From a virus, in IMG/VR virus record IMGVR_UViG_3300042520_003262, positions 1 to 27,359 of that record: a stretch of 27,359 bases of DNA; one strand, 5' to 3'. Position 1 is the stretch's first letter. Each line of letters opens with the position of its first letter. The notes under the pieces are model-generated. The model was not told the DNA's origin. It worked only from the letters and a program-made list of their open reading frames with translations, and ran no database searches. A program made the translations under genes and the position numbers. Positions 2,378-22,258 of this stretch are shown here, piece after piece.

Positions 2378-2407
2378 CAAATATAAATAAAGATGCCCAA
2401 AAAACAA
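2378..2407 (-). promoter_or_regulatory. Host-type (Bacteroidota) promoter before the sigma gene
   Basis: Read on the minus strand, TTG (2407-2405) is followed by a 19-base spacer and TATATTTG (2385-2378). This fits the published Bacteroides housekeeping pattern of TTG at -33 and TAnnTTTG at -7. Transcription would start about 5-10 bases before the chosen sigma start at 2364. It would let host polymerase express sigma, primase and the small sigma-like gene early. Confidence 0.5.
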
Positions 2408-2416
2408 TGAAATTTT

Positions 2417-6226: not shown

Positions 6227-6242
6227 TTAATACTTATTTTCC

Positions 6243-6250
6243 ATAAATAG
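6243..6250 (-). promoter_or_regulatory. CTATTTAT late-promoter candidate for gp6-like operon
   Basis: CTATTTAT on the minus strand begins 24 bases upstream of the gp6-like ATG. It is paired with an identical element on the other strand, separated by 10 bases. No -35 element is evident, as in T4 late promoters, which consist essentially of a -10 box. Confidence 0.6.
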
Positions 6251-6260
6251 TTAAAAAATA

Positions 6261-6268
6261 CTATTTAT
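6261..6268 (+). promoter_or_regulatory. CTATTTAT late-promoter candidate for the 140-aa gene
   Basis: CTATTTATAATAAA begins 18 bases before the ATG at 6279. It is the same element, with the same downstream A/T-rich extension, as at 21241. It faces away from the minus-strand copy at 6243-6250. Confidence 0.6.
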
Positions 6269-6278
6269 AATAAACTAT

Positions 6279-6701
6279 ATGCCTAGACTAAAACGCTCAA
6301 AATTATCGTTAACACAGGAAAGTATAGAAAAACATATGAATGAAGTTTATAGTATCCTTGAGAACTATAAACAAATGGGAGTCAGACATTATAATTTCGT
6401 ACTTCGTATCATTGAAGAGTTAGGCTCTGACAGCATTGAAGACCCTGTAAGGCTTCAATTAATGGCACAGCTTGAACAGTCAAGAAACAATTCTTTGAAT
6501 GCTTTTAAGGAGTATTTAAAGATGAAAACAGACCTAATTACCAAACATCTTAATAGTGTTAAAATCTTTGGTGATTTGGAAGTCAAATCAAATAAAACAA
6601 AAAGTAGTGGTTCTGATGATTCTTCTTTAAGTAAAGAAGACCAAGATGAGGTTCAAAAAATGATACAAGAACTTATGACAATGAAGCAAACTAAATTTTA
6701 A
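6279..6701 (+). CDS. Hypothetical helical protein, single plus-strand gene
   Basis: This 140-aa protein is not recognised. A basic N-terminus (MPRLKRSKLSL) precedes about 85 residues of amphipathic helix, then a Ser/Lys/Asp-rich flexible linker (about 105-120) and a final acidic-basic helix. A basic head plus helical bundle plus tail would suit a small terminase subunit, a scaffold or an assembly chaperone, but no motif decides between them. It is the only plus-strand gene in its neighbourhood, has its own CTATTTAT element, and ends in an 11-base convergent overlap with the amidase-like gene. Its separate promoter suggests a dose or time of expression independent of the flanking operons. Confidence 0.7.
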   Translation: MPRLKRSKLSLTQESIEKHMNEVYSILENYKQMGVRHYNFVLRIIEELGSDSIEDPVRLQLMAQLEQSRNNSLNAFKEYLKMKTDLITKHLNSVKIFGDLEVKSNKTKSSGSDDSSLSKEDQDEVQKMIQELMTMKQTKF

Positions 6702-6720
6702 AAATAATAGAATTTAGTTT
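6688..6720. terminator. Hairpin shared by two convergent gene ends
   Basis: AAACTAAATT (6688-6697) and AATTTAGTTT (6711-6720) are perfect inverted repeats, extendable inward by a G-T wobble and two more pairs to leave a 7-base loop (6701-6707). The stem spans both stop codons of the overlapping convergent genes. The A/T-rich stem and short T stretches on each side make it a candidate bidirectional terminator, though without a classical long U-tract. Confidence 0.5.
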
Positions 6721-7263
6721 ATCAACATTTAAAGTTGAATTTGGAGAATAAGAGAAGACATCAATATGATTTAAAAAAATTATAGAATTGTCTTCTCTAT
6801 TTTTTATGTTAATCTCTTTAAGATGTAAATTATGTTTATTTCCTAAATAAATGATTAAATGTGCTAATGCTTCTGTTTGGATTTTTGTGTATTTATCGTA
6901 AAAACTTGTATCCTTATTAAGACTTATTTCATCAACATTTTTTTTATCAATTTTATCATTACACCAATTTAAAAAGTTATCATCAATATTGATTAATTTA
7001 CCTGCATTTTCTAATGCAACAAAAATTGAGTTCTTATTTATTTTTTCTATTGTTGTGAAATCGGAATAATACTTTTCATCATAAAATTTATGTATAGACC
7101 CATCTTTCTTTATAACATATGCAGGTGCATACTCTTTTTTGGATAATGATGTAATATATTTATCAAAGTCATTCCTTAAAGTATCACATATGATAATATA
7201 CTTTTTATCATTTTCTTCTTTGACAAACTTATCAATCGGATTTAAAAGTATTTCTTTAAGCAT
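6691..7263 (-). CDS. Amidase_2/PGRP-like protein with degenerate zinc site
   Basis: This 190-aa protein follows the layout of N-acetylmuramoyl-L-alanine amidases of the T7 lysozyme/PGRP type: a hydrophobic strand (IIIC, 23-26), AYVIKKDGSIHKFYDE at 48-63 (family pattern 'Y-x-I-x-x-D-G-x-I-x-x-x'), NSIFVALENAG at 78-88 ('S-I-x-I-x-L-x-N-x-G'), YTKIQTEALAHLIIYL at 125-140 ('T-x-x-Q-x-x-x-L-x-x-L'), and NHIDVF at 165-170 ('G-H-x-D-V'). The His normally found after the first strand is not present; Cys26/Asp27 stand there, and only His166 of the zinc triad is clear. It may be an inactive, structural or altered-metal relative, perhaps a tail-associated wall-binding protein. It overlaps the upstream exonuclease gene by 8 bases. 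The family call comes from pattern alone. Confidence 0.5.
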   Translation of the reverse strand: MLKEILLNPIDKFVKEENDKKYIIICDTLRNDFDKYITSLSKKEYAPAYVIKKDGSIHKFYDEKYYSDFTTIEKINKNSIFVALENAGKLINIDDNFLNWCNDKIDKKNVDEISLNKDTSFYDKYTKIQTEALAHLIIYLGNKHNLHLKEINIKNREDNSIIFLNHIDVFSYSPNSTLNVDKLNSIIFKI

Positions 7264-7975
7264 CTATACACAATCTCTTCATCACTTTCCCTGTTAGTGC
7301 AACATCCATTTCACAATAATCAACAATCTTTTTTAGGTTCTTTTCTTTGTGGAATGTTGAACCAACCATTGACCCATCCATTATATCTTTATGTGTTTCA
7401 AGACCTAAACAACTGGCAACAGCATCCAAAGAAACAAAATTTCTTGTATTCATTTGCCATAAAAGAAATATATCTTTAAATTTTGCTGATAATTCCCAAG
7501 GTTTCTTGTCAAAAATTCTAAAAATAGGTGGAATTTGTTTAATATTATTAATAAATGCCCTTTTTATAATAAACGGTACATCAAATGTGTTAATATTATA
7601 ACCAACAATACAACTTGTTGGATTTTTTAAAATCTTTTTGTTAATAAATGTAAAAAAATTGTTAATAATTTCTGCTTCATCATATACAGATGAGAATGAA
7701 ATTGTAACAACTTCATCATCTTTGAATCCACCACAACTGATTACAACAATTTTACCATATTCTGAATAAAGAGGTGCTTTCTCAAAATAGATTTTACTTA
7801 GAAGTTCTTCAGTTAAGTCAGAACGATATTCATTATCGGCATACCATTTTGCTCTTTTTTGAAAACTTGCTGCTAATGCAGGTTTTAATTTTTTACATTC
7901 TTCAAATGACGAAAATTCGGGTACGGTTTCAATGTCAATGATAATACCGTTTTCAATATCGTATCTTGTAATCAT
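7256..7975 (-). CDS. DnaQ/PolB-type 3'-5' exonuclease
   Basis: This is a 239-aa stand-alone exonuclease of the DEDD superfamily, most like the PolB exonuclease-like proteins. Exo I is IIIDIET (11-17) with D14 and E16. Exo II is GYNINTFDVPFI (125-136) with D132. Exo III is YCEMD (220-224) with the Y-x-x-x-D form and D224. All four metal-binding acids are present, so it should be active. No polymerase domain is attached, so it would act in repair, recombination, end trimming or proofreading in trans. It follows the metallophosphoesterase gene by three bases and overlaps the next gene by eight, placing it in a DNA-processing cluster with RuvC-like and UVR-domain genes. Confidence 0.85.
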   Translation of the reverse strand: MITRYDIENGIIIDIETVPEFSSFEECKKLKPALAASFQKRAKWYADNEYRSDLTEELLSKIYFEKAPLYSEYGKIVVISCGGFKDDEVVTISFSSVYDEAEIINNFFTFINKKILKNPTSCIVGYNINTFDVPFIIKRAFINNIKQIPPIFRIFDKKPWELSAKFKDIFLLWQMNTRNFVSLDAVASCLGLETHKDIMDGSMVGSTFHKEKNLKKIVDYCEMDVALTGKVMKRLCIDA

Positions 7976-7978
7976 AAA

Positions 7979-9568
7979 TTAATAAAGTACTTCGTTTGTA
8001 AAGCTAAAACCTGAGTTTTCACAAATACCTAAAAGAAATCCTGGAAGTTGATTATTACCTAGTCTATCCAAAATAAACTCATCTACTGAGCAAACAGATG
8101 GTAAAGAGATTTCCATATAATTTGTTCCTGCATTAAATGAGATTTCACTTGAATGCCAATGACCATTTACAACCAAGTGATATCCTGATGTACCAATACC
8201 ATAAAGATTAACAAGTTCATGTCCTTTTTTCTTAATGATTTCAGCATCACCATGATGTGCAATGATACACAAATCATTCATATCATGGTTTTGATGTTTC
8301 TCAACATACACTTGTTTTCTTGGAATATTAAATCTGATAAAATCATCATTTTTAAATTCTCTTTCAATCATATGGTAAGCAATTAGAGAACCTGTTCTTT
8401 CTTGGTCATCATCTCTATCTTTACCAATTCTATCGTGATTACCACCAATGTATGTAACAACAATTGGGAATTCATTTCCTAATTCATTTCTTAATACATT
8501 TAAGAATTCAATTTGAGAATCAACACCAAAAATAAGTTGGTCAATACCTGTAATATCCATTGATTTAAGGTGTTCTGCTCTCATTCCACCTGTCATGATT
8601 GATTCATACATATCCCCACCAAAAAGAATATAAAGTTTATTAAGATTTTTAAATCTAATATAATCTACTGTCTTTTTAGCAATTTGCATCATTCTTTCAT
8701 GTGCAATGTCTTTATTATAACCTCTTCCAAAAACAGGAATACTGTATTTCTTACCATAGTGAATATCAGAATACATTAGATAACAAATATCTGTATATTG
8801 ACCAAAAATTTGAGGTTTTGACAATTCATTTGTTTCTTCTCTTGTATAATATTTTTCAATACTTTCCTCAATGAACTTTTGAATATCTTTTAAATCGTGA
8901 ATTTTTTCTTGACTTTCAAAATATTTCTTTTCAATGAATGATGCTCTTTTTTCAACAATTTTATTAAGACTTGCTGATGCTTTATTTTTTAATGCAAATT
9001 CAGCAATCTCTTCCTCTGTATGTTCTTCAAGAATATGCAAAGGAAAGAGCATGTCTTTTGTGATATTAAAACATCTAATAACTCTTTTAAATTGTTGAAA
9101 TGTTAAATAGGGAAAGTAAGAAGAAACATTCATCATTGTCACATAAGGATAATATTGATGAATAGTTTCAAGTTGTTCTCTTGTTAGTTTACCAACAAAT
9201 GGTTTTTCTCCTTGAATATAGATTGTAAAAGAGTAATCAATAATTTTATTATTCTCATCACGATTACCTATCCAAGTACTTCTATTATCGTATTTCTCTT
9301 CTTTATCCACATCCACTCTATGAACAATGCTAGGTGTTGTTTTAATATCTTTTAAAGAGTTGTATTTATTCCTTAATTCAATCAATTGAAAATATCTATT
9401 AGATTCTTTTATGGAATTACTTATAAATATTTTTTTAATAAACCCCTCATAAAAACCTAAATCAAGTTCGGCTTTATTGATAGACACATTATTTTGAAAA
9501 CAGTAATTGAAAATTTTAATTGCATTTTCAATTCTATTCTCAACTGAAATATAATTTTGTGTATTCAT
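7979..9568 (-). CDS. Calcineurin-like metallophosphoesterase with N-terminal extension
   Basis: This is a 529-aa protein. The C-terminal half (about 260-500) has the complete two-metal phosphoesterase signature: SDIHYG (D268, H270), GGDMYES (D319), GGNHDR (N377, H378), AHHGD (H438/H439) and NGHWHS (H470, H472). The first 250 residues are extra: an N-terminal segment (about 10-50) could be a helix-turn-helix, and about 180-250 is charged helix. This looks more like a phage DNA-binding nuclease or phosphatase than SbcD/Mre11 (T4 gp47), and no SbcC/gp46-like ATPase is next to it. Neighbours (exonuclease, UVR protein, RuvC-like) favour a nucleic-acid substrate, which is inferred. A TATATTTG sequence nine bases before the ATG resembles a -7 box but lacks a spaced TTG. 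Confidence 0.8.
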   Translation of the reverse strand: MNTQNYISVENRIENAIKIFNYCFQNNVSINKAELDLGFYEGFIKKIFISNSIKESNRYFQLIELRNKYNSLKDIKTTPSIVHRVDVDKEEKYDNRSTWIGNRDENNKIIDYSFTIYIQGEKPFVGKLTREQLETIHQYYPYVTMMNVSSYFPYLTFQQFKRVIRCFNITKDMLFPLHILEEHTEEEIAEFALKNKASASLNKIVEKRASFIEKKYFESQEKIHDLKDIQKFIEESIEKYYTREETNELSKPQIFGQYTDICYLMYSDIHYGKKYSIPVFGRGYNKDIAHERMMQIAKKTVDYIRFKNLNKLYILFGGDMYESIMTGGMRAEHLKSMDITGIDQLIFGVDSQIEFLNVLRNELGNEFPIVVTYIGGNHDRIGKDRDDDQERTGSLIAYHMIEREFKNDDFIRFNIPRKQVYVEKHQNHDMNDLCIIAHHGDAEIIKKKGHELVNLYGIGTSGYHLVVNGHWHSSEISFNAGTNYMEISLPSVCSVDEFILDRLGNNQLPGFLLGICENSGFSFTNEVLY

Positions 9569-9582
9569 ACGACAAATATAAA

Positions 9583-10095
9583 CTATTTTTTAATCTTTTT
9601 GATTTTTTCTCTAATTTTAACAGCTAATTCGTAATTCTCTGTTTTAAGAGCATCATCCAACTCCGACTGAAGTTCAATCTCTGTTTTTTTCCTTCTTTTT
9701 GTTTTTATTTTAAAAAGGTCAACAACATAAAGAGTTGTAAAATGTTCATTATTACTATAATGAACTGTTACAGGAATAAGCAAATCAATATAATCTTTTT
9801 TAATATGTTTCTTTTTATCTTCTATTGATATCTGTTCCCAAGTATTGATAAAGTCAATAAATTCAGTATCAACAAGAGTACCTGTTAAATACATTACCCT
9901 ATGCGATTGCTCAAGTATTGGGTCAAGTGTTTCAAAAAACTCTTCTGAATTTTCATATTCTTTACCATACTCTTCAAAAAAATCATCCACATCTTCAGGT
10001 AGAATCATTTCACAAGAAAAGTATGAAAACATATTAATTGTTGTTAATAAATTAACATATACTTGTGGTTTATCTTTTTTAGTATTCTTTTTCAT
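9583..10095 (-). CDS. UVR-motif protein of unknown function
   Basis: The chosen 170-aa form starts at MKKNTKKDK. A longer frame from 10146 would add 17 residues inside the resolvase gene and is less likely. The C-terminal 35 residues, ELQSELDDALKTENYELA followed by VKIREKIKKIKK, fit the UVR domain (helical hairpin, 'L-x-x-x-L-x-x-A-x-x-x-x-x-(Y/F)-E-x-A-x-x-x-R-x-x-I') used by UvrB/UvrC, ClpC and McsA for protein contacts. The rest is mixed alpha/beta with an acidic middle (about residues 37-60, E/D rich) and is not recognised. It probably serves as an adaptor that binds a host or phage repair or protease partner (inference). It overlaps the resolvase gene by 17 bases. Confidence 0.6.
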   Translation of the reverse strand: MKKNTKKDKPQVYVNLLTTINMFSYFSCEMILPEDVDDFFEEYGKEYENSEEFFETLDPILEQSHRVMYLTGTLVDTEFIDFINTWEQISIEDKKKHIKKDYIDLLIPVTVHYSNNEHFTTLYVVDLFKIKTKRRKKTEIELQSELDDALKTENYELAVKIREKIKKIKK

Positions 10096-10699
10096 AGTAT
10101 TTCTTAAATGATGATTTTGCAAGTGCAATAGAATCTGTAATATCAAAGTTTTCAGTTTTTAACTTACCGTTCTTATTATATAACCAAGAAATATTTTCAT
10201 AATCTTTTGCAATCTTTTCAAAGATATATGTTTTTGGGTCAATTTTCCTAGATTTAAATTTTAATGTAAACTTGTTTTTCTTTGCATCATATTCCGTCAT
10301 TTCAGGACAGAATATTCGCCTAACTTCATCAACACTCATAAATTTAGGTATGAGTCCAAGCACATCTCTTAATATATAGGAACATATACCATTGAATTTC
10401 AACAACTTATTTACCGTGTAGACATTATTTGACTTTACCAAAGGTTCTTCAACAAAGATATCAATAATTTCATAAATTTGCAATTGCTCAACAAATTTTT
10501 TAAATGCATCCCCCTTTGTAATTTCAGGGTCATCATTGCATTCTTTATTTGTTACCATTTTGAGTGCCTTTACTGAAATAAGTTCAAAATTTTGATTGTA
10601 CATTGAAAAACCAATGCAACTTGTTGATATATCAAAAGATATAAATACCCTATCTTTGGGTATCATAATACCCAAATCTTTAAAATCAATAATTTCCAT
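10079..10699 (-). CDS. RuvC-like Holliday junction resolvase/nuclease
   Basis: This is a 206-aa RNase H-fold nuclease. The first strand carries FISFDISTSCIGFSMYN (19-35) with catalytic D23, in the RuvC pattern 'D-x-(G/S)-x-x-x-x-G-(F/W)-(A/S)'. The second acid is in IFVEEPLV (81-88, E84 or E85). The C-terminal acids are in DITDSIALAKSSF (186-198, D186 and D189), matching the 'D-x-x-D-A-x-x-(I/L)-A' helix. Phage relatives resolve recombination and packaging intermediates or debranch DNA. The gene begins 13 bases after the 479-aa fibre-like gene, so it is likely read from the late promoter candidate at 12164-12171, as expected for a packaging-linked resolvase. Confidence 0.8.
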   Translation of the reverse strand: MEIIDFKDLGIMIPKDRVFISFDISTSCIGFSMYNQNFELISVKALKMVTNKECNDDPEITKGDAFKKFVEQLQIYEIIDIFVEEPLVKSNNVYTVNKLLKFNGICSYILRDVLGLIPKFMSVDEVRRIFCPEMTEYDAKKNKFTLKFKSRKIDPKTYIFEKIAKDYENISWLYNKNGKLKTENFDITDSIALAKSSFKKYYEKEY

Positions 10700-10712
10700 A
10701 AAATATAATACG

Positions 10713-12152
10713 TTATATTACCAATTTGATATTAAATGGTAAAATTGTGTTTGGTAATTTCTTTACAGGTTCACTAAATTTACCAATACCAATTAATTCA
10801 TAATTTGCATTGTAAAGGCCAATTGATGTGATGAATACAGGTTTTTCTGCTTCCTCTTCTCCGTAAGCATCTGCATATGTTGAATTGGTTGAACCAACAA
10901 ATTCTCCTGCATTTGCAATACACCATATATTTTGAATAAACTCTGTTGTGATTGAATCAAATTGTGCATTTGAAATTGTTGTATTTGTAAAGTAAATTTT
11001 TGCAAAATTTGTATCACCTGTGTATGCATTTCCAGCACCAATACCGTTATATCCTGAAGATTTTCCTGATATATATAAGAAATTATCAACTATTGTTGAG
11101 TCTGTAATAACAGCAATTCCTTTATCTTGGAAGAGAATTCCTACAGGTATATCATAAACAGGTATTGTACCAATTTTATTAAATGATGCGTATCTTTTTC
11201 CTCTTAAATCATTAGATGTGGTTGGAAATTTATTTGATGGGGATATGTATCTACTCCAAGAAAGATTTGAATTATCAATTGATTGTTTTATTATAACAGA
11301 TATGAGTTTTAATATAGGTTTTGAAAATTGACTTGTAGTTTCATCATAAATTATAATATTTTCATTTGTAAAACCTTCTGGTATTGTCACATAATTTGAA
11401 TATGAATTCTGATTTGAAGGGTATAATTTTTGATTTCCAATATATGCCACAATTCCAGCTATACTAGCATTTAGAACATTAGGAAAAATTTCAACTGAAA
11501 TTCTATCACCTGAACTGAAAGTAATAGACGTTAAGGTAATGGGATTGCCACGATAGTTTGAAATATTATTATCGTTTACTGTATATGATGATAAAAGAAC
11601 TGTTTGTTCATTACCTGGTAATTGTGGTCTTTGAATATCATTTGAAAATAGAAAAGATACATTTGAATTAAAATTACTATCAGAACTAGGTGGTATACCA
11701 AATTCACTAGATTGTTGATTTGGGTCACTTAATAAAGAATTTAAATTATTTATAAAAGTTGAACCATCAGAATCTTTATATCCAAAATATGTTGAATATA
11801 ATGTTGTTGATGTCGCTATGCTGTTTAGAGTAACAGGAATTGTTAATGCAAATGTTTTACCATCAATAAGTTCACCATATTGACCTTTTGGAATTTCGAC
11901 AACAATTATTCTATCTTTTTGTAAATATTGAAATGCAGTATCTTTATATTTTTGAGTAAATATTTCAATTTCACTTGGTGTAATTGGTAAGTTAAATGAT
12001 TTAAATAAATTACCATATGGTGTACTTGGTTCGTCAACTTTAGCAAAGGTGTATAATAAATTAACACCATTTAAATTTGAACTATTCCTTGTTGGAATTT
12101 TTTGAAATCCTGTCGTTCCTGATTCGATAAGTTTATATCCTGTTGCTGCCAT
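10713..12152 (-). CDS. Tail-fibre/baseplate protein with P2 gpH-like C-terminal motif
   Basis: This 479-aa protein is rich in Ser, Asn, Thr and Ile, typical of beta-rich virion proteins, with no signal peptide. The last about 43 residues, VFITSIGLYNANYELIGIG then KFSEPVKKLPNTILPFNI, align with the C-terminus of the 682-aa protein at 15082-17130 (VFVTEAGVYDDNNNLVAVSK...). The pattern resembles the 'I-T-E-(I/V)-G-(L/V)-Y-D-x-(D/N)-x-x-L-(I/V)-A-(V/I)-x-x' module of P2 gpH-type collar/fibre proteins, which is N-terminal there. I infer a fibre attachment or short-fibre role. It has its own CTATTTAT element 19 bases before the ATG and is followed by DNA-processing genes. Confidence 0.6.
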   Translation of the reverse strand: MAATGYKLIESGTTGFQKIPTRNSSNLNGVNLLYTFAKVDEPSTPYGNLFKSFNLPITPSEIEIFTQKYKDTAFQYLQKDRIIVVEIPKGQYGELIDGKTFALTIPVTLNSIATSTTLYSTYFGYKDSDGSTFINNLNSLLSDPNQQSSEFGIPPSSDSNFNSNVSFLFSNDIQRPQLPGNEQTVLLSSYTVNDNNISNYRGNPITLTSITFSSGDRISVEIFPNVLNASIAGIVAYIGNQKLYPSNQNSYSNYVTIPEGFTNENIIIYDETTSQFSKPILKLISVIIKQSIDNSNLSWSRYISPSNKFPTTSNDLRGKRYASFNKIGTIPVYDIPVGILFQDKGIAVITDSTIVDNFLYISGKSSGYNGIGAGNAYTGDTNFAKIYFTNTTISNAQFDSITTEFIQNIWCIANAGEFVGSTNSTYADAYGEEEAEKPVFITSIGLYNANYELIGIGKFSEPVKKLPNTILPFNIKLVI

Positions 12153-12163
12153 TATATTTTATA

Positions 12164-12171
12164 ATAAATAG
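12164..12171 (-). promoter_or_regulatory. CTATTTAT late-promoter candidate for the 479-aa gene
   Basis: CTATTTATTATAAAA on the minus strand begins 19 bases upstream of the ATG at 12152, in the 32-base gap after the 482-aa adhesin gene. It would re-initiate transcription within the long minus-strand unit. Confidence 0.55.
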
Positions 12172-12184
12172 TTGTTTAATTAAA

Positions 12185-13633
12185 TTACCATTCGTATGTA
12201 CTAGTTGTAAGTGTTAGTGTATCATTTACTATCAAACTTGAATTAGTTACTTTGATTTTAAATGTATAAAACCTTTGTTGTGGGGTAGGAAATGTGCCAC
12301 CAATAGGTTTTAAAAGTGAATTACTATTTCTAGCCACTCTTAAAGTTATTCTTTTAGTATAGATTGTATTACTAGGACTAGCTATTGCATCGCTAAAATT
12401 ATATATAATAGGTGTACTTAATGGTGCATATCCAGTTTGCTGATTATATAAATCATATGTAAGGTCCATAGTATTTGAATTACCTTCTGATTTTATTATA
12501 GAAAATGTAAAGTTTAGGTCATTAGTTGTTATTGCACTACCATCACTTCTAGTTAATAAAAGAGTAAGAGGAAATGTTACTTCCCCTGTTGTAATAACAG
12601 TTTGACCATTACTATTACCTATACCACCTACATTACCTGTTGCAAAAGTTGCAGGTGCAACATTTAATATTAAATCTCCAACAGATACTGCACAAGTTGT
12701 GGTTGTTGTATTAATAAGACCTTGATTTCCTTGTGAATCAATTAAATATATTTTATAATAGACATTATTATTTCCATATGTTGTTGGAAAATCATATGTT
12801 TCATTAGTTTGTTTAAAAGTATATATATTTGGGTCATACATAATTACAAGATTACCATTAGAATCAACTGGTACTGCTTTCCATTTATATGGACCACCTG
12901 CACCACCTACTGCGGAAATAATTTGTATTTTTAATTTATCTGTACCATTATCTAAACATGTTTGAATTATACCACCTTGTAAAGGAGGTAAAGGGGGTAC
13001 TGTAAGTGATGTATCATTAATAATTACTTGTGCTGCTGTTGCTAAAGTATCTCCTGCTGCATTTTTTAAATACACAGTTATATTTTCAGCACCTTCTGTT
13101 GAAACATCATTTCTTACATTTAAAGAAAATGAAGCAGATTTTATTGAAGGTGTTGATGTGTTTGTAATAAGTGATATTGGGTTCATTGACCCTGCACTAA
13201 TACCTTCGATAAAATCTGCTGAACTCGTTGTTCCATTGTATGACCAATATAAAATATTATCAGTAATATTTTGTGTTGTTATTGTATATGTAATTTTTTC
13301 TCCTTCATTAACAGAAATTTTATTAGGTTGAATTACATACTCAGGAGTTAATACAATTATAGGTGTTGTTAATGCATCTTTTAAAACCGTATTTAAAATA
13401 TTTGGGGAACAGATATTATCATCTCCTGTAATATCGGGAATAAATCCACTTGGTAGTGTATTGTATATATTATTTGATTTTTTAGATGATATGTAGTAAT
13501 TAACATCATTATCATGCAAAGAAAAATATTTAACTTGGAAATCAATGGTTTCACCAGTTAATATCTTTACTTTACCGTTTTGAGTAAGATATGCGTAAAT
13601 TTTTTTATTATTCGATTTATTTACAAATCCCAT
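12185..13633 (-). CDS. Modular adhesin-like protein with Calx-beta domain (paralogue 3)
   Basis: This 482-aa protein starts with a roughly 70-residue module shared with the next two upstream genes: MGFVNKSNNKKIYAYLTQNG, then YFSLHDNDVNYYISS and SGFIPDITGDD (to 72). Residues about 104-209 form a Calx-beta-like domain: 'SVNEGEKITYTITT', 'LYWSYNGTTSSADFIEG', 'STEGAENITVYL' and 'VIINDTS', the acidic residues being those that bind calcium in this family. Residues about 225-320 (GGAGGPYKWKAV... YKIYLIDSQGNQG) look like a further Ig-like or SprB-type adhesin repeat, and the remainder is beta-rich. The common N-terminal module probably attaches to the same virion site, while the rest projects and binds (inference). 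The gene starts five bases after the preceding stop. Confidence 0.65.
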   Translation of the reverse strand: MGFVNKSNNKKIYAYLTQNGKVKILTGETIDFQVKYFSLHDNDVNYYISSKKSNNIYNTLPSGFIPDITGDDNICSPNILNTVLKDALTTPIIVLTPEYVIQPNKISVNEGEKITYTITTQNITDNILYWSYNGTTSSADFIEGISAGSMNPISLITNTSTPSIKSASFSLNVRNDVSTEGAENITVYLKNAAGDTLATAAQVIINDTSLTVPPLPPLQGGIIQTCLDNGTDKLKIQIISAVGGAGGPYKWKAVPVDSNGNLVIMYDPNIYTFKQTNETYDFPTTYGNNNVYYKIYLIDSQGNQGLINTTTTTCAVSVGDLILNVAPATFATGNVGGIGNSNGQTVITTGEVTFPLTLLLTRSDGSAITTNDLNFTFSIIKSEGNSNTMDLTYDLYNQQTGYAPLSTPIIYNFSDAIASPSNTIYTKRITLRVARNSNSLLKPIGGTFPTPQQRFYTFKIKVTNSSLIVNDTLTLTTSTYEW

Positions 13634-13638
13634 TTTAT

Positions 13639-14328: not shown

Positions 14329-14336
14329 TTATAAAA

Positions 14337-15080: not shown

Positions 15081-15081
15081 A

Positions 15082-17130
15082 TTAAAAATCCATATCTATT
15101 TCTATTGTAAATAATTTAGTGTTATTCTTTTTAATTGGGTTATTTAATTTTGAAACCGCAACTAAATTGTTATTATCATCATAAACACCTGCTTCTGTAA
15201 CAAAAACATTATCACCATCTTCAAATGTTGGATTATTTGAGGTATTGTATTGTGAAAATCCTAAACTTTGTGATATTTTTGTTTTATAAACATTTGCTTT
15301 TATACTAGTATTTACATTACCTAATAAAATACTTTCTTCTCCAAAACCTAAACCTGATGTATATGATGGTGAAGTTGGTAGTGGACCTATAAAACTTTCA
15401 ATATTATAAGTTGAACCTGCATCGTATTCAGTTTTTGTAATTCTGTATGTTTGGGTTAATGCTGATACTGGCATATTATAATTACCATTCCAATCAGCGT
15501 ATCCTGCTAAATTAGCAGTATAATCAATTAATTTCCAAGCATCAGGAGATGGTTTTGCATTATATGGCACTATTTGTGCTAAAATATAAAGATTATTTAC
15601 ATTAAATCCTGTTCCATCAGAACTTGGAAGATAATTTTCCATAAATATAAGGTCAGATTGTTCAAAACTAAATAAAATATTTCTATCTGTTGTTGAACTT
15701 TGGTCAAAATATTTTATATATCCACAATGAATACCACCTCTAAAACCAAAACTTCTATTTGTATGGTAATTTTGTGTTGTTAAAATATATGTCAATGCAA
15801 GATATTGAGTTGGTGACCCTATAAATTTTGGTAATAATAAATTATTTGCTGAAATCTCTGCTGCGGTTGCATTAACATTTTGCCATTTTGGTAATGGTAG
15901 TGTATGTGACCTATCACTTTTTAATGCTAAAGCATTTACAATTTCTTCGTCTTCAATTACAGCAATTCTTAAATCATTAAACACTTTACCAACAATATTT
16001 AAAGATGTTGTTTCAACCAAATCATAAAATTCGGTTGTGAAACCTGTCAAAGTAGTTGGTAGATTTTGTTTTGTCATTGCTGATAAAACAATACCCATTG
16101 TTCTAGTTTTTTTACCATGATACATAATTGTTGGTAGAGTTAATTTAAATGTGTTATTTAAAAATCCCTCACCATAATAATTTGAAATGGAGTTATTGGT
16201 ATAGTGTATAATACCTAACTGTTGTATATTTGATTTTGATGTTTGACCTTGAATGTATTCTTTAAAACCTGTGAAGACTGCATTGTCATAATATTGTGCT
16301 TCATAGCCATTTGTCACACCTGCTGGTGTTTGATTATAAGCAATGGTAAAGTTCCATACTGAAACATCATCGTTTGAACCAATGTTACAGGTTGAATCAA
16401 AAGCTAAAGTATTATAATTCCAATAAGAAACTGTAGTACCTGTACTATAATAATTATCAACTGCATTATTTGGTGGATAAACGTAAACCAAACTTTCTAC
16501 CGCCCCACCTTGAGCATTAAAATTTGGTAGTGGTCTATCAACTTCAATATTAATACCATTGACTGAAATAACTTTATACCAAAGAAATGGTCTTGGATAT
16601 GCTTCACCAATTACCCCTGTTAAAGCAGTAAAAGATAATAGTTTTGGATTTCTCCAATCAACTAAAAGCATTGTTCCTGCTGTAATATTTGTTGCAGATG
16701 CTACTTTAAGTATTGTAGAACCTGTAACACCCGTAATTAAAGCAGTTGTTATTCCTAAAACATAGGTTGAAGAAGTAAGTGCTGTAAATCCTGCTGAAGT
16801 TGAGCCTGTAAAAAATCCTCTTTGTTTTGCAGTATTTGTTATAAGACGAATAGTTGGACTTATTTGAACAATATCAGTTTTTGTATCTATAGATGTTTCT
16901 GATATTGGTAAAGGATATTTTATATTTGGATTAGCATCTTTAGGTCGCATCATCACAAAGTCAGTACCTTCAATAATTGCACTATTATCTCTTAGAAAAT
17001 TATAGTCCATTTCTGAATCACCAAATTCAATTTTCTTGAATGTTAAACTACCTGAAGCAAGTAATAATCTACCTGTATTTGTTAGTTTGCTATTTATTAC
17101 AACTGCATCACTTTTTTGTATAAAACTCAT
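15082..17130 (-). CDS. Large baseplate/fibre protein heading the adhesin series
   Basis: This 682-aa protein is the first gene of the unit. Its N-terminus (MSFIQKSDAVVINSKLTNTG, then FKKIEFGDSEMDYNF to 45) is a diverged copy of the module of the three following genes, with GDSEMDY where they have LHDNDVNY. The body (about 60-620) is Thr/Ser/Asn/Tyr-rich and beta-like. The C-terminus (VFVTEAGVYDDNNNLVAVSK, then LNNPIKKNNTKLFTIEID) matches the C-terminus of the 479-aa protein. It thus carries both modules found separately downstream and may be the parent or hub fibre of the group. A baseplate-attached fibre is the best guess; no enzymatic motif was seen. A symmetrical promoter-like site lies just upstream. 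Confidence 0.6.
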   Translation of the reverse strand: MSFIQKSDAVVINSKLTNTGRLLLASGSLTFKKIEFGDSEMDYNFLRDNSAIIEGTDFVMMRPKDANPNIKYPLPISETSIDTKTDIVQISPTIRLITNTAKQRGFFTGSTSAGFTALTSSTYVLGITTALITGVTGSTILKVASATNITAGTMLLVDWRNPKLLSFTALTGVIGEAYPRPFLWYKVISVNGINIEVDRPLPNFNAQGGAVESLVYVYPPNNAVDNYYSTGTTVSYWNYNTLAFDSTCNIGSNDDVSVWNFTIAYNQTPAGVTNGYEAQYYDNAVFTGFKEYIQGQTSKSNIQQLGIIHYTNNSISNYYGEGFLNNTFKLTLPTIMYHGKKTRTMGIVLSAMTKQNLPTTLTGFTTEFYDLVETTSLNIVGKVFNDLRIAVIEDEEIVNALALKSDRSHTLPLPKWQNVNATAAEISANNLLLPKFIGSPTQYLALTYILTTQNYHTNRSFGFRGGIHCGYIKYFDQSSTTDRNILFSFEQSDLIFMENYLPSSDGTGFNVNNLYILAQIVPYNAKPSPDAWKLIDYTANLAGYADWNGNYNMPVSALTQTYRITKTEYDAGSTYNIESFIGPLPTSPSYTSGLGFGEESILLGNVNTSIKANVYKTKISQSLGFSQYNTSNNPTFEDGDNVFVTEAGVYDDNNNLVAVSKLNNPIKKNNTKLFTIEIDMDF

Positions 17131-17137
17131 TAGAATA

Positions 17138-17145
17138 CTATTTAT
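17138..17145 (+). promoter_or_regulatory. CTATTTAT late-promoter candidate for the 114-aa gene
   Basis: CTATTTAT begins 25 bases before the ATG at 17163. Together with the minus-strand element at 17147-17154 it forms the near-perfect palindrome ACTATTTA-TAT-TAAATAGT, so one short site could serve both directions. Confidence 0.55.
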
Positions 17146-17146
17146 A

Positions 17147-17154
17147 TTAAATAG
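17147..17154 (-). promoter_or_regulatory. CTATTTAA promoter half-site for the 682-aa gene
   Basis: The minus strand reads CTATTTAA, one base from the common element, beginning 24 bases before the ATG at 17130. It faces the plus-strand element across one base, so the two candidate promoters would produce transcripts with overlapping 5' ends. Confidence 0.5.
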
Positions 17155-17162
17155 TTAGGATT

Positions 17163-17507
17163 ATGTTTAGTTCATTGTTAGAAAACCCATTGGTTAAAAC
17201 TTTATACAAAGTTTTTTTTGATTTATTTAGAGATAGTAATTCTAAAAAATACTCATTAAGTAGGTTTTTGGCTGCTATTTTATTTGTAATGGTTGTATGG
17301 TTTCATGTAAAAGCCATTCAAATAATGTTTGAAAAAAAAGAAGTTGACCACGCATTATTGTTAGAAGATTTTGCATTTATAAGTGCAATAATTTTTCAAA
17401 AAAATTATATTAACAGAAATAATGTAGAAATAGGTCTTCTAAGTGGTATTGAACCAACTGTGGAAGACCCTAATGTTACATCAGTACAAGAACAACAACT
17501 AAACTAA
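17163..17507 (+). CDS. Small membrane protein, possible holin
   Basis: This is a 114-aa protein. One clear membrane segment lies at about 35-56 (FLAAILFVMVVWFHVKAIQI), preceded by a basic, amphipathic N-terminus. A weaker hydrophobic stretch at about 64-80 contains Glu68/Asp69. The C-terminal 30 residues are polar and acidic. Size and topology would suit a holin or another lysis or superinfection membrane protein, but no family signature was recognised and no endolysin gene is adjacent. It is alone on the plus strand between two minus-strand blocks with its own CTATTTAT element, and its last nine bases overlap the 3' end of the glycosyltransferase gene. Confidence 0.6.
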   Translation: MFSSLLENPLVKTLYKVFFDLFRDSNSKKYSLSRFLAAILFVMVVWFHVKAIQIMFEKKEVDHALLLEDFAFISAIIFQKNYINRNNVEIGLLSGIEPTVEDPNVTSVQEQQLN

Positions 17508-18902
17508 TTCAAGTTGGTTTTCCTTTACAAGACTTCTATAAAAGTCTGCTCTTATTTTTGATAAAACATCAATATCATATCTTTTACAAGCAAGTTCATA
17601 TGCTGCTTCGCCCATATCTTTTACATGATTTGGATTATTAATACAATATTTAATCTTTTTATACCAATCCTTATATTGTCTATCGGGATTTACATATAAA
17701 ATGTTCTTTCCATCAACCCAATCTTTATCATGATTATAAATTGGAACATCAGAAGCAATTACAGGAACTTTATGGAATGCCGCCTCAATTACTTTAAGAT
17801 TTGATTTGGCAAACTGATAGCGATTATCAGAATTATCATCCATTACACCTTTACCATATACTTTAATTGGTGCAAGTGCAACATCACCATGTCTATAATT
17901 TGCTGCAAATTTATAAAGACCTTGAGTTTTATGTCTAAAATAGTTTTGTTCGGATTGTTTTTCATAAACAGCATCTAAATCAAACTTCATCAAGAAATCA
18001 TGGTAATCTTTATCTTTAATTAACTTATAATTACCTGTAAAAATCTCTTCATATCTTGTCCAAACTGTTTCTTGTGGTTTAATTGGTTGTGTATTTTCTG
18101 TTAAAACATTACCATTATATTTTTGAACAAGTTCTCTTGGTACTTCAGGAGTATTAATAATATCAAAATTATTTGAAACAAGTTTTTTATAAAGTTGTTC
18201 ATTAAAAATACCCATTGCTTGAATTTCTTTAATAAAATCCTCATTTATACTATAGTTTGTGGTTGTTCCTCTAAGGTCAAATCCTGAAAGGTGAATTTGA
18301 AATTTATTTGCAACTGATACATCATCAACTAACTTTTCAATACTATCTTTTAGGAGAGAAACATCTTGTAAGTGAGAAGAACCTGCAAGATAAAGAATTC
18401 TTAATTTATCATAACTACATTTATCATCAGATGGTGTCCATTCTTTTAGGTTTCTATTAACACCATTTGGAATAATAAGAATATTTTTATTATATTTTTG
18501 AATATAGTTTGCATATACTGAAGTTGTGGTTGAAACACCATCAACAATTTTAAGATTACCAACAATTTTATCTTTTAGATTATCTTTCTTAACTGCGTGA
18601 TAAAGAGGGTGTTCTTTTGAAACTTCCCAATAATCATCAATGTCAAGTATTACTTTAATTCCAAAAGAATGAAGTTTATCTACCAAGAATGGCATTTGAG
18701 CAAAATCACAAAGAGTTCTATGACCGTGAATAATATCATATTGTTTTAAAAAGGCATCATCATTCCAATCGGGATTTTTGATATAATCAATTTCAAATTC
18801 ATCATCATATAGTTTTGAAAGAGAAATGGCAGGTTGTTCAGAACGATAGAAGTTTACACCATGAACATCTTGGTTTGTTATCAAAATTTTTGGTTTTCTC
18901 AT
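17499..18902 (-). CDS. GT4-type (GT-B fold) glycosyltransferase
   Basis: This is a 467-aa protein. The N-terminal half has Rossmann-like strands (KILITNQ at 5-11, VILDIDDYWE at 84-93) and the GT4 hinge phrase ILIIPNGVN (141-149). The C-terminal half ends with SNLKVIEAAFHKVPVIASDV (about 367-386), matching the sugar-nucleotide-binding 'K-x-x-E-(A/G)-x-A-x-x-x-P-V-I-A-S' motif, with E373 as a key Glu. It should transfer a sugar from a nucleotide donor. An insertion of about 100 residues in the middle (about 205-310) is unusual. The acceptor is unknown: host surface glycan, phage structural protein, or DNA. It lies between the gp25-like gene and the membrane protein, inside the tail region. No CTATTTAT element precedes it; the 38-base gap to gp25 is only A/T-rich. 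The stop is TAG. Confidence 0.8.
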   Translation of the reverse strand: MRKPKILITNQDVHGVNFYRSEQPAISLSKLYDDEFEIDYIKNPDWNDDAFLKQYDIIHGHRTLCDFAQMPFLVDKLHSFGIKVILDIDDYWEVSKEHPLYHAVKKDNLKDKIVGNLKIVDGVSTTTSVYANYIQKYNKNILIIPNGVNRNLKEWTPSDDKCSYDKLRILYLAGSSHLQDVSLLKDSIEKLVDDVSVANKFQIHLSGFDLRGTTTNYSINEDFIKEIQAMGIFNEQLYKKLVSNNFDIINTPEVPRELVQKYNGNVLTENTQPIKPQETVWTRYEEIFTGNYKLIKDKDYHDFLMKFDLDAVYEKQSEQNYFRHKTQGLYKFAANYRHGDVALAPIKVYGKGVMDDNSDNRYQFAKSNLKVIEAAFHKVPVIASDVPIYNHDKDWVDGKNILYVNPDRQYKDWYKKIKYCINNPNHVKDMGEAAYELACKRYDIDVLSKIRADFYRSLVKENQLELV

Positions 18903-18940
18903 ATTTTATAATATTTAAAATAAAATACGATAAAATATTT

Positions 18941-19333
18941 TTATCCAAAAACCAATGTTATATCATCAAGTAAAGTATTGAAAAGATTAGTATAAGTAAA
19001 GATAATATTTATAGTTAATTTATTAACTTCTTCAGATTGGTCAATAATTATTTCTTGTATTTTTACATTTCTAAAATACTTTTCAACATCAGCTTTTAGT
19101 GATGTTTTAATTGAGTTTGCAGTTACACTATCATTCTTTTCAAATAAGAATTCGTGAAGTCTTGTTCCAAAATCAGGGTCATACCATCTTTCTCCCTTTT
19201 TGGTGTTTAAGAAAAAATATAAAGAGGAACGGACATCATCAACTGTTGTTGTATTCATTGCCAACAACTTTCCATTCTGTGTATCATCTTTAAATGGAAA
19301 TTTAATTGATATTGTCTTGTTATTATTTGCCAT
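18941..19333 (-). CDS. T4 gp25-like baseplate wedge protein
   Basis: This 130-aa protein belongs to the gp25/TssE/phage W family, which starts sheath polymerisation at the baseplate inner ring. The diagnostic block GERWYDPDFGTRLHEFLFE is at 47-65 ('G-E-R-x-x-x-P-x-F-G-x-x-L-x-x-x-L-F-E'), preceded by SSLYFFLNTKK and followed by a mixed alpha/beta C-terminus. T4 gp25 is about 132 aa, so the protein is full length. Its ATG overlaps the TAA of the upstream ParB-domain gene (TAATG), implying translational coupling and a common promoter at 20226-20233. Confidence 0.88.
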   Translation of the reverse strand: MANNNKTISIKFPFKDDTQNGKLLAMNTTTVDDVRSSLYFFLNTKKGERWYDPDFGTRLHEFLFEKNDSVTANSIKTSLKADVEKYFRNVKIQEIIIDQSEEVNKLTINIIFTYTNLFNTLLDDITLVFG

Positions 19334-20211
19334 TATGTAATGATTAACATTATTTTATCACCAAAATTGATTCCATCATATCCTGCTCTTTTTGCAAATC
19401 CATTTAATCTATTCTTAATGAAATGAGCATATACTTGATTTACATCTGATGCCATTTTTTTAATCATTGTAGGGTCTTTTTCAAAACTAGGGTCAAGTGT
19501 ATACATACCCGATAAATAAAATGGTTCATGAAGTTCCATCTCTTCGGCAGGTATATGCAAAACTTTATCAAAAAGAATTTCATATTCTTTATCATATCCT
19601 TTATCCTTTGTAAATGACATAATAAAACCTGAAGTATTACCCTTATCAAAAGGTCTTACTGAATATAGAGTACAAACTTTATTCTGAACATCATCAAAGG
19701 TTAATTTGTCTTCTAATTGCTCTTGTTCTTGCTCTTTATCCTTTCCTAAGTATTTTGCATCATCAACTACATCAACACTTTTAATTTCATTTTCAATAGG
19801 GTCTGAAATATTAATTGTGCTTGGGTTTGAAATACTATATTCTTTTTTAAACTCAATTCTATCTTGAATTTTATTTAAAATTCTAGAAGCATCTTTTGAA
19901 TTTAGAAATATTTTATAACATTCTACCTTGTCAATATCAGGTCTTGATTGATAAACATAACTCCTATGGTGACCATCTAATATATTATTATTGGCATCAA
20001 CCCAAGTCTGAGGTAAATATCCATCATTATCAATAACACTATTAATATCATCAATTTTTGACTTCATAACCTTTTTTTGTAAAGGTTTCAAATAACTTGG
20101 TTCTACCATTACTTTTTTAACAATGATACCACTATCTTTCAGTTCTTGAAGGATTTCACTAACATTTTCTTCCTTTATTTGAGGTAACCACATTTCTGAC
20201 ACAGTACTCAT
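19333..20211 (-). CDS. ParB/Srx-domain protein with unassigned C-terminal domain
   Basis: The 292-aa form begins at MSTVSEMW. A longer frame from 20247 would start upstream of the CTATTTAT element at 20226-20233, so the internal ATG is preferred. Residues about 31-110 form a ParB-like domain: VMVEPSYLKPLQ, then YLPQTWVDANNNILDGHHRS (65-84), with the family's 'D-G-x-H-R' motif at 79-83. A charged linker (about 120-175, with an E/Q-rich KDKEQEQEQLEDK) leads to a second domain (about 178-292) with LYSVRPFD, TSGFIMSF, YEILFDKVLHIPAEEMEL and AGYDGINFGD. That order faintly recalls phage ADP-ribosyltransferase-like domains, but the ExE glutamates are not evident, so no call is made. It is cotranscribed with gp25. 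Confidence 0.65.
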   Translation of the reverse strand: MSTVSEMWLPQIKEENVSEILQELKDSGIIVKKVMVEPSYLKPLQKKVMKSKIDDINSVIDNDGYLPQTWVDANNNILDGHHRSYVYQSRPDIDKVECYKIFLNSKDASRILNKIQDRIEFKKEYSISNPSTINISDPIENEIKSVDVVDDAKYLGKDKEQEQEQLEDKLTFDDVQNKVCTLYSVRPFDKGNTSGFIMSFTKDKGYDKEYEILFDKVLHIPAEEMELHEPFYLSGMYTLDPSFEKDPTMIKKMASDVNQVYAHFIKNRLNGFAKRAGYDGINFGDKIMLIIT

Positions 20212-20225
20212 GAATGTTTTTTTTA

Positions 20226-20233
20226 ATAAATAG
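20226..20233 (-). promoter_or_regulatory. CTATTTAT late-promoter candidate for ParB-domain gene and gp25
   Basis: CTATTTATTAAAA on the minus strand begins 22 bases before the ATG at 20211. The opposite-strand copy begins at 20249, so the two divergent units are driven from within about 30 bases. Confidence 0.6.
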
Positions 20234-20248
20234 TAAATACAAATCATA

Positions 20249-20256
20249 CTATTTAT
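20249..20256 (+). promoter_or_regulatory. CTATTTAT late-promoter candidate for the chaperone unit
   Basis: CTATTTATATAAAA begins 25 bases before the ATG at 20274. This placement supports that ATG over the upstream in-frame ATG at 20214, which lies before the element. Confidence 0.6.
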
Positions 20257-20273
20257 ATAAAATTTTATTATCT

Positions 20274-21059
20274 ATGGAAAATATGTCAAATGTTAAATCT
20301 AAGCTAGATAGCTTATTACCTAAAGTCGTATCGGATTATGTAGAATTGCCATCGCAAGGTGTATTCTATGAAAGCGGTATTGATAAACTTATGGTGGAGT
20401 ATATGACTGCATCAGATGAACAATATCTTTTATCTGAAAACTATATTAAGAATGGTACAGGTATTGAATTGTTAGCAAAAAATAAAATCAAAGACCCTGA
20501 ATTTAACGGTTCAATGGATGTTTTTGATTTACTTACAGGTGATTTAGATGCTGTTCTTCTATTTTTAAGAAGATTTGCATATGGAGAAGAATATCCTGTT
20601 CAAGTTCGTGATACCAATGGTGAGTCATATGAAACAACGATTGATTTATCCACAATTAAATACAAAGAAATAGTTAAACCAAATCAAAACATGCTTTATG
20701 AATTTGATTTGCCAATTTGTAAACATAAAGTTGAGTTTAAACTTCTAACTTATGGTGATAAAAAGAAATTAGACCAAAGATTAGAAAAAATTTCAAAATA
20801 TAAGAACGAATCTTCAATCTTTGAAATGCAAGAAAGAATTATTGCACAGCTTCAAACAATTGCAGGTGAATCAGACAGACAGTTTATTGACAAATTCGTT
20901 AAACTTATGCCACCAAAGGATTCATTAGAACTAAGGAGATACATTTTAAGTGTAGAGCCAGGATTAGATTACGATTATGAATTTGAAGGGAAATTCACAG
21001 GGGACTTTTTTCGTCAGACCATTGCCTTCGGTTTGGAGTTTTTTTATCCAAGAAAGTAA
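20274..21059 (+). CDS. T4 gp26-like baseplate hub/tail assembly chaperone
   Basis: The chosen 261-aa form starts at MENMSNVKSK. A frame from 20214 adds 20 residues upstream of the promoter element and is rejected. The protein fits the T4 gp26-type family (Pfam T4_baseplate): ELPSQGVFYESG (24-35; family 'L-P-S-x-G-x-x-Y'), VEYMTASDEQYLLSENYIKNG (split about 41-61), then DVFDLLTGDLDAVLLFLRRF and AYGEEYPVQV, the 'D-x-x-x-L-x-x-L-R' helix and 'Y-G-x-x-Y' turn. In T4 these proteins help build the hub and tape-measure complex. The tape measure lies two genes downstream, as expected. The frame ends at TAA 21057-21059 in the middle of what looks like continuous helical sequence that resumes in the +1 frame (next entry). 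Confidence 0.75.
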   Translation: MENMSNVKSKLDSLLPKVVSDYVELPSQGVFYESGIDKLMVEYMTASDEQYLLSENYIKNGTGIELLAKNKIKDPEFNGSMDVFDLLTGDLDAVLLFLRRFAYGEEYPVQVRDTNGESYETTIDLSTIKYKEIVKPNQNMLYEFDLPICKHKVEFKLLTYGDKKKLDQRLEKISKYKNESSIFEMQERIIAQLQTIAGESDRQFIDKFVKLMPPKDSLELRRYILSVEPGLDYDYEFEGKFTGDFFRQTIAFGLEFFYPRK

Positions 21060-21237
21060 ATACGAAGAACTAATCGCTGAAGAAGTTAATTTTCTTGTTG
21101 AAAATAACTACTCATATTATGATGTAATGTATTTAATACCTGTTTATCTTCGTAAAAAGATAATACAAATTATATACGAGCGAAATCAGAAAATGTTAGC
21201 CGAAAAGCAAAGAGCATCAGGTTATCAAAATGTTTAA
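20977..21237 (+). CDS. Trans-frame C-terminal extension of the gp26-like chaperone
   Basis: This frame is open from 20968 to 21237, in the +1 (or -2) frame relative to the chaperone. Its first about 25 codons overlap the end of the chaperone and read as a shadow. From SKYEELIAEEVNFLVENNYS onward it is a convincing helical protein (about 60 residues, ending QRASGYQNV) with no start codon near the chaperone stop. The ATG at 20977 lies 83 bases inside the upstream gene without a leader. The layout resembles lambda G/GT-type tail chaperones, in which a minor fraction is extended by ribosomal frameshifting, and Mu, which uses -2. The fusion would be about 320 aa. A true point frameshift (mutation or assembly error) is the alternative. 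Confidence 0.6.
   Translation: MNLKGNSQGTFFVRPLPSVWSFFIQESKYEELIAEEVNFLVENNYSYYDVMYLIPVYLRKKIIQIIYERNQKMLAEKQRASGYQNV
21039..21045 (+). other. Candidate frameshift slippery site (T7)
   Basis: Seven T occur just 11 bases before the chaperone stop, read in frame as GAG-TTT-TTT-TAT. A +1 or -2 slip of tRNA-Phe here moves into the open frame and joins GLEFF directly to IQESKYEEL. A T6 run at 21006-21011 is a second possible site, but using it would insert a less protein-like stretch. Confidence 0.5.
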
Positions 21238-21240
21238 TAT

Positions 21241-21248
21241 CTATTTAT
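21241..21248 (+). promoter_or_regulatory. CTATTTAT late-promoter candidate for the 332-aa gene
   Basis: CTATTTATAATAAAA begins 19 bases before the ATG at 21260 and three bases after the stop of the chaperone extension. It matches 14 bases of the element at 6261-6274. Confidence 0.6.
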
Positions 21249-21259
21249 AATAAAAATAT

Positions 21260-22258
21260 ATGAAGATATTAAATTATAAATATCTAAATGAAGCTATATT
21301 ACCATCATTAGGTAAAGCAGGTGCGGTAACAAATATTCCTCAAAAAAATGTGGATGCTCTTGTTGGTTTGAACTTGAAAAATTCAACAACTATGGGCGAT
21401 GCTGCTGTTGTTAGTTCATATAGATTAATTGGGTTAGAATTTTATGAGAAACAATCTTATAATAATTTTTTAACAGGTGCAATTCTTCAAAATGGTGTTC
21501 GTGTTGAAAATAAAATGTCATATAATTTTTTTACTTATTATGAAAATGACGATTGTTATCTTTATCCATTTACAGGTGTTGATGTACCAAGATTTGGTTC
21601 AAGTACTATTAAAACATATATTAAATTAAACTTATTTAAAAAGGCAAACCCAAATCAACCTGAAGATATTAAGATTTATTTTGATGATTTTAAAGAAAGT
21701 AGGACTATCAATAATGAATATAATACTAAAAATTATTCTTTAGAAATATTATCAAATTTTGATGAAATTAATAGAGAAAATAAAATTACAGATGAGGGGG
21801 TATTAAATCTACGAAATTATGCAGCAACAGACCCATCACAAACAAATTATTATTTGAGTTTTATTATGGTTAGTGAACCTGTTAGTGTTATTAACAACAG
21901 AGATATAACTAACAATGTTTTTTATAATATAGATTTTTATCCACCTAGAACTGTACCTCAAAATCAACCTACAAATGCTAATACTATTATTAATAATTTT
22001 AATATTGCATTTAGTGGTAGACAATTAAGATTATTACAAGAAACAAATACTAGTAGTTCTCCATTAGGAACAAATGCACCACAAGGTTTTGCTCAGTCTT
22101 ATCCTTATGTTACAATATTTACAAAACCAACTGGTAATATTCCCTATAATATTTATACAATAAGAAAACTTTTAACATATAAAGGGCAGGCAAGAACAGA
22201 TTGTTATATTGGTACAAACAATAATGAATTTATTCAATGTGAATTAGAATTTAATTAA
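21260..22258 (+). CDS. Hypothetical tail protein between chaperone and tape measure
   Basis: This 332-aa protein is not recognised. It has no signal peptide or membrane segment. It is rich in Asn, Tyr, Phe and Thr, with many short hydrophobic strands, consistent with a beta-sandwich virion protein. A Thr/Asn/Pro-rich stretch (about 232-265) may be a loop or linker. Having its own CTATTTAT element immediately before the tape measure suggests high late expression. In T4 the position between gp26 and gp29 is taken by hub proteins (gp51, gp27, gp28), so a hub or tail-tube-initiator role is possible on position alone. The gap to the tape measure start is five bases. Confidence 0.6.
   Translation: MKILNYKYLNEAILPSLGKAGAVTNIPQKNVDALVGLNLKNSTTMGDAAVVSSYRLIGLEFYEKQSYNNFLTGAILQNGVRVENKMSYNFFTYYENDDCYLYPFTGVDVPRFGSSTIKTYIKLNLFKKANPNQPEDIKIYFDDFKESRTINNEYNTKNYSLEILSNFDEINRENKITDEGVLNLRNYAATDPSQTNYYLSFIMVSEPVSVINNRDITNNVFYNIDFYPPRTVPQNQPTNANTIINNFNIAFSGRQLRLLQETNTSSSPLGTNAPQGFAQSYPYVTIFTKPTGNIPYNIYTIRKLLTYKGQARTDCYIGTNNNEFIQCELEFN

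Follow-up and report, generated by a model that had tools for sequence, protein, structure and literature searches.

A short A/T-rich repeat, CTATTTAT, recurs just upstream of start codons on both strands of a 27.4-kb virus contig. This raises the question of what the repeat is and what reads it. The contig, here called the window (27,359 nucleotides, analysed whole), is a single virus record with a G+C content of 27%. Its gene products include a baseplate wedge and a baseplate hub protein, a primase, nucleases and two sigma factors. The phage is described as Bacteroidetes-type, and the best match among cultured phages is Flavobacterium phage immuto, with 25% identity across the whole baseplate wedge protein. 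An earlier note on this DNA listed eight copies of the repeat 18-25 nt before start codons, four per strand, and proposed a late promoter without a -35 box, read by a dedicated phage sigma factor. The copies, strands and distances were all correct as given.

The repeat is only the visible part of a longer element. The earlier note took it for the whole and overlooked its bipartite nature: an invariant AAA stands four bases after CTATTTA, and the full element is 14 nt, CTA(T/A)TTA-N4-AAA (Table 1). The raw count of CTATTTAT in the window is near chance (8 versus 4.25 +/- 1.95 expected; at least 8 in 4 of 100 shuffles). The full CTATTTANNNNAAA (CTATTTA-N4-AAA) is found nine times versus 0.70 expected, a count reached in 0 of 100 shuffles, and every copy lies 18-25 nt before an ATG. 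No copy had been noticed inside a gene, but one exact copy exists there (17090-17097) and it alone lacks the AAA. The supposedly weaker CTATTTAC at 33-26 is indeed present, but as a full member of the set, CTATTTACATGAAA.

Table 1. Predicted late elements, sigma factor genes and related features of the window
Feature	Position	Strand	Context
Predicted late element CTATTTACATGAAA	20..33	-	18 nt before ATG at 15(-); gene cut by contig end, PhoH-like in relative G006
Predicted late element CTATTTATGGAAAA	6237..6250	-	24 nt before ATG 6226; baseplate wedge gene 4409-6226
Predicted late element CTATTTATAATAAA	6261..6274	+	18 nt before ATG of 6279-6701, divergent partner of wedge gene
Predicted late element CTATTTATTATAAA	12158..12171	-	19 nt before ATG 12152; gene 10713-12152
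Predicted late element CTATTTATATTAAA	17138..17151	+	25 nt before ATG of gene 17163-17507
Predicted late element CTATTTAATATAAA (8-mer copy CTATTTAA)	17141..17154	-	24 nt before ATG 17130; gene 15082-17130
Predicted late element CTATTTATTAAAAA	20220..20233	-	22 nt before ATG 20211; gene 19333-20211
Predicted late element CTATTTATATAAAA	20249..20262	+	25 nt before ATG of baseplate hub gene 20274-21059
Predicted late element CTATTTATAATAAA	21241..21254	+	19 nt before ATG of gene 21260-22258
CTATTTAT without AAA	17090..17097	+	inside gene 15082-17130; judged a non-member
ECF-like sigma factor, candidate reader	22..543	-	region 2 and putative divergent region 4
RpoD-like sigma factor, candidate reader or earlier cascade step	1522..2364	-	regions 2 and 4
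Host-type promoter ATTG-N19-TATATTTG	2378..2408	-	upstream of RpoD-like sigma gene; same place in relatives matches better

The two parts of the element depend on each other for their location. Of 129 copies of the bipartite element in the window plus seven related contigs, 112 lie 13-32 nt before a start. This placement falls to 5/94 when the AAA is broken and to 7/141 when the first C is changed. It is nearly lost on change of a core base, the fourth base alone being tolerant (23/37 upstream). The element is commoner upstream than in genes, as the earlier note had expected, and an equal in-gene frequency was not found. The contigs compared are mostly fragments, and the genes were called with a simple ORF caller, so that single starts may be off, which biases against enrichment. 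In a de novo count with no prior motif, CTATTTAT or ACTATTTA was the top upstream 8-mer in every long relative belonging to the window's clade. The core 8-mer lies 15-30 nt before starts in 69 of 103 copies, versus 0-7 for ten control 8-mers. The same procedure applied to 50 kb of T4 returned TATAAATA, the known late promoter of that phage. A by-product of A/T richness was considered and rejected on the evidence of the A/T-rich LR756508, Mel-JY01 and Lak-B1, which have no TATTTATA enrichment in 50 kb.

When 106 upstream sites from six genomes were aligned, the AAA was present in 96-98% of them, and no other strong conservation was seen beyond CTATTTA and AAA. No -35 conservation was found in these sites; upstream of the element, information peaks at 0.31 bits on the neighbouring base and amounts to 0.18 at -24. 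Orthologs retain the element at a rate of 0.89 versus a background of 0.23; its conserved positions do not vary, and the flanking sequence is about 55% identical. Genes with the element are unit heads: 10/122 lie within 10 nt of a preceding same-strand gene, versus 272/485 of other genes. An intrinsic terminator lies directly upstream, its end no more than a few bases away from the element, in 6/125 cases versus 3/482 controls. In these six cases the terminator abuts the element, so that the promoter there has to be the element. Divergent genes share close or overlapping elements; the copies at 17138 (+) and 17141 (-) together form a 17-bp palindrome, which is found in several genomes. The start codons that the earlier note chose for one divergent pair (20211 and 20274, not the overlapping longest frames 20247 and 20214) are consistent with how the orthologous pair is spaced in relatives.

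G006, a relative of 170 kb, carries the element ahead of its genes for terminase, portal, capsid (at 34 nt), sheath, tube, baseplate wedge, baseplate hub and PhoH, and its small-gene block at 13-36 kb is almost free of it. The late timing of these genes is inferred from such gene content. The enrichment over whole genomes, the conservation in orthologs, the classes of gene served and the terminators adjacent to the element in the relatives strongly support the proposal of a late promoter without -35 box before structural genes and unit heads. On this sequence evidence, CTA(T/A)TTA-N4-AAA is very probably the late promoter of the window's phage.

Other readings were weighed. The element always lies near a start codon, in phages where Shine-Dalgarno-like sites are nearly absent (2/216 genes in G006), as would be expected of a 5' leader signal acting in RNA, such as a translation enhancer or an A/U-rich ribosome-binding element, with no promoter function. 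However, the AAA stays at a constant distance from CTATTTA, while the distance to the ATG varies. Operon-internal genes are mostly without the element, and the six abutting terminators leave no space for another promoter, so that we regard an RNA signal as highly improbable. A dimeric phage activator or repressor binding a degenerate 17-bp palindrome, CTATTTAT-N-ATAAATAG, is very unlikely, if a shade less so. It would account for the full palindromes between divergent genes and for a conserved AAA where the mirror half-site would be. Yet the second half of one-way sites is conserved at the AAA only, and neither the 45 nt upstream nor the short stretch before the ATG shows any further promoter-like conservation.

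The least credible of the alternatives is that these are ordinary host sigma-A promoters in A/T-rich DNA, active at any time of infection. The Bacteroidetes sigma-A consensus is TTTG-N19-TAnnTTTG (PMC6847099, PMC9723704). With the host's spacing applied, the TA of the element would match the -12/-11 position in the host -7 element. The element nevertheless lacks TTTG at both places, at -33 and at the end of the -7 box; distinct early-type motifs occur in the same genomes, and the element is missing from other A/T-rich phages in the 50 kb read of each.

Under the late promoter reading, the RNA polymerase of the host, directed by a phage specificity factor, would read TA(T/A)TTA as a -10 element, and transcription would start on or beside the AAA. 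The messages would have short leaders without Shine-Dalgarno sequence. Translation in Bacteroidetes is Shine-Dalgarno-free, and short leaders are compatible with it. The geometry is taken from the host -7 element (PMC6847099): with the first T of TATTTA set at -12 and the A at -11, the AAA would cover about -2 to +1 and leaders would therefore be mostly 5-12 nt. The mean leader in F. johnsoniae is 33 nt (PMC6847099), longer than these. We further propose a cascade in which host sigma-A would transcribe early genes, including that of the RpoD-like sigma, from TTTG-N19-TAnnTTTG, and the phage factor would then redirect polymerase to the late element. Upstream of the RpoD-like sigma gene, TTTG-N19/20-TAnnTTTG is found in G006, G007 and the G001/G003 type, with near matches in the window and G002, in line with the published Flavobacterium consensus (PMC6847099).

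In T4 the late promoter is TATAAATA, and gp55 recognises it together with gp33 and the gp45 clamp (PMC2988020, PMC7892883). Both systems have a single -10-type A/T box without -35, before virion genes and on both strands, and 6/8 sense-strand bases are equal. The likeness to T4 drawn in the earlier note stands as to the -10-only box, but not as to placing the T4 box on the other strand: the sense strand here reads TATTTAT(A) in all sites, with two central bases unlike TATAAATA. In addition, the element has an obligatory C (G or A by lineage) before the box and a rigid AAA after it, and lies 18-25 nt from an ATG without Shine-Dalgarno, whereas T4 elements were found at 22-36 nt and without the rigid AAA. 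In the relatives TATAAATA does not head the list of upstream words, and membership in the T4 consensus fails. Judged by these features, the element is a variant of the -10-only phage late promoter that would work like that of T4 but falls outside its consensus.

A dedicated phage sigma factor that reads the element, as proposed earlier, is plausible, and three proteins are candidates. The one we favour is a gp55-like protein with a sigma-region-2 fold, encoded outside the window. It is found in G006 (164500-165294), G007, G002, G008, G011 and immuto (gp118), and the family comprises at least 558 viral loci. It superimposes on RpoS region 2 (Z 9.2, rmsd 3.0 over 95 residues) and on SigA (Z 8.6, rmsd 2.3 over 98 residues); by itself, Foldseek matched no PDB entry at E < 0.001. 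The T4 gp55 structures (7D7C/7D7D) are absent among the structural neighbours listed, which carries no weight either way, and the BFVD neighbours are annotated as late sigma factors. Alignment to gp55 is weak but co-linear. The protein shares the region 2 fold with the gp55 family (phrog_234) but is about 80 residues longer, and its match to that profile is weak or absent (E = 0.008 in immuto only; 0.5 for one of six members); T4 gp55 itself, as a control, matches at 3e-69. In the clade its C-terminal tail is short, acidic and hydrophobic (DDYLSI). A search for a bacterial-type clamp (PF02768) found none. In G006 the operon with the gp55-like gene is not headed by a late element, which fits a factor that is made ahead of the late genes. 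In immuto it is the only sigma-like protein found, with no ECF-like or RpoD-like sigma detected. Another immuto protein, gp143, was rejected as a sigma because its match (E 4e-5) is an acidic one of biased composition.

The chance that the gp55-like protein is the reader is put no higher than about even, because its gene was not detected in some contigs with TATTTAT, and the motif is missing from some sequences that encode it. Three combinations accompany TATTTAT: an RpoD-like sigma only, ECF-like and gp55-like proteins together, or the gp55-like protein only. In G012, G015, G016 and G020, which have TATTTAT upstream, an RpoD-like sigma is the sole one detected; in LR756508 and Mel-JY01 the gp55-like protein is present and the motif absent from the 50 kb read. 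The element does not track any one protein, and sigma gene content does not single out its reader.

The ECF-like sigma of the window is a less likely reader. Region 2 was recognised in 11/11 relatives, and the best structural matches are full-length ECF sigmas (model pLDDT 66); no match to the region 4 profile was obtained. ECF sigmas normally need a -35 element, which counts against this candidate. The RpoD-like sigma of the window is more doubtful still. The size and LFT tail of the ECF-like protein also suggested gp55 itself. This identity was rejected: the best family is phrog_1740, not phrog_234, and the LFT codons are promoter bases. The LF tail is confounded as a clamp-binding motif because the LFT* codons, CTATTTAC, encode the promoter itself. 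The late element at 20-33 shares its bases with this end and stop of the gene, and an element lies inside the 3' end of the ECF-like sigma gene in six genomes (the window, G006 at 102229, G007 at 69795, G005 at 26305, G002 at 58887 and G008 at 66345).

Versions of the element appear to be used by many related, mostly uncultured phages. In the 246-kb phage G011 the word is GTATTTAT with the same AAA (GTATTTAN4AAA 33/45 upstream; 8/98 with AAA broken). Immuto has (A/C)TATTTATA followed by A-rich bases before the terminase, portal, sheath, tube and tape measure genes; it differs in its first base, A or C, and in looser downstream A positions. Words of the TATTTATA type top the upstream list in 49 non-redundant loci with an RpoD-like sigma, and likewise in 57 with a gp55-like gene. 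We tentatively suggest, at somewhat less than an even chance, a lineage-wide late system of Bacteroidetes phages. In such a system the divergent gp55-like sigma family would read a TATTTAT-type -10 whose first base is C, G or A by lineage. In the window's clade this box would be fused to an initiation-site AAA, with 17-bp palindromes firing both ways and near-leaderless messages.

Late transcription in T4 has been worked out in detail. In the literature searched, we found no report of CTATTTAT or TATTTATA late promoters in such phages, nor of late promoters in Flavobacterium phages, the immuto element included. The element would provide a compact, highly specific 14-nt rule by which late genes, unit heads and true start codons can be read from metagenomic contigs. 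Immuto, with Flavobacterium sp. LMO8 as host, offers a cultured test case, and an overlooked sigma-like protein family is put forward as a candidate. From lineage to lineage the first base changes among C, G and A, which could act as a natural experiment on -10 recognition.

Several other upstream motifs were observed. At 12.9-36.2 kb of G006, about 30 copies of a second long motif, TTTGTAAGATT-N10-TTTGATATATTAAGG, precede small genes; it is probably an early promoter, and was not found in G007 or the window. Immuto has a second motif, GTTG-N19/22-TAnnTTTAGG (15/19 before genes), which resembles the Bacteroidetes host promoter and is probably its early promoter. G009, a 35.7-kb relative, has long open frames over only about half of its length, with its sigma gene split over two frames. 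Stop recoding was rejected as the cause, since neither TAG nor TGA as sense restores coding density; frameshift sequencing errors may explain it. A further upstream word of G011, AACGTATAAG (ACGTATAA in 11/20), is perhaps another promoter class. With TAG read as sense, ATAAATAT (9/30) is among the most enriched upstream words at 180-230 kb of Prevotella phage Lak-B1, where TATAAATA is upstream in 5/26, and Lak megaphages possibly have a T4-like late promoter.
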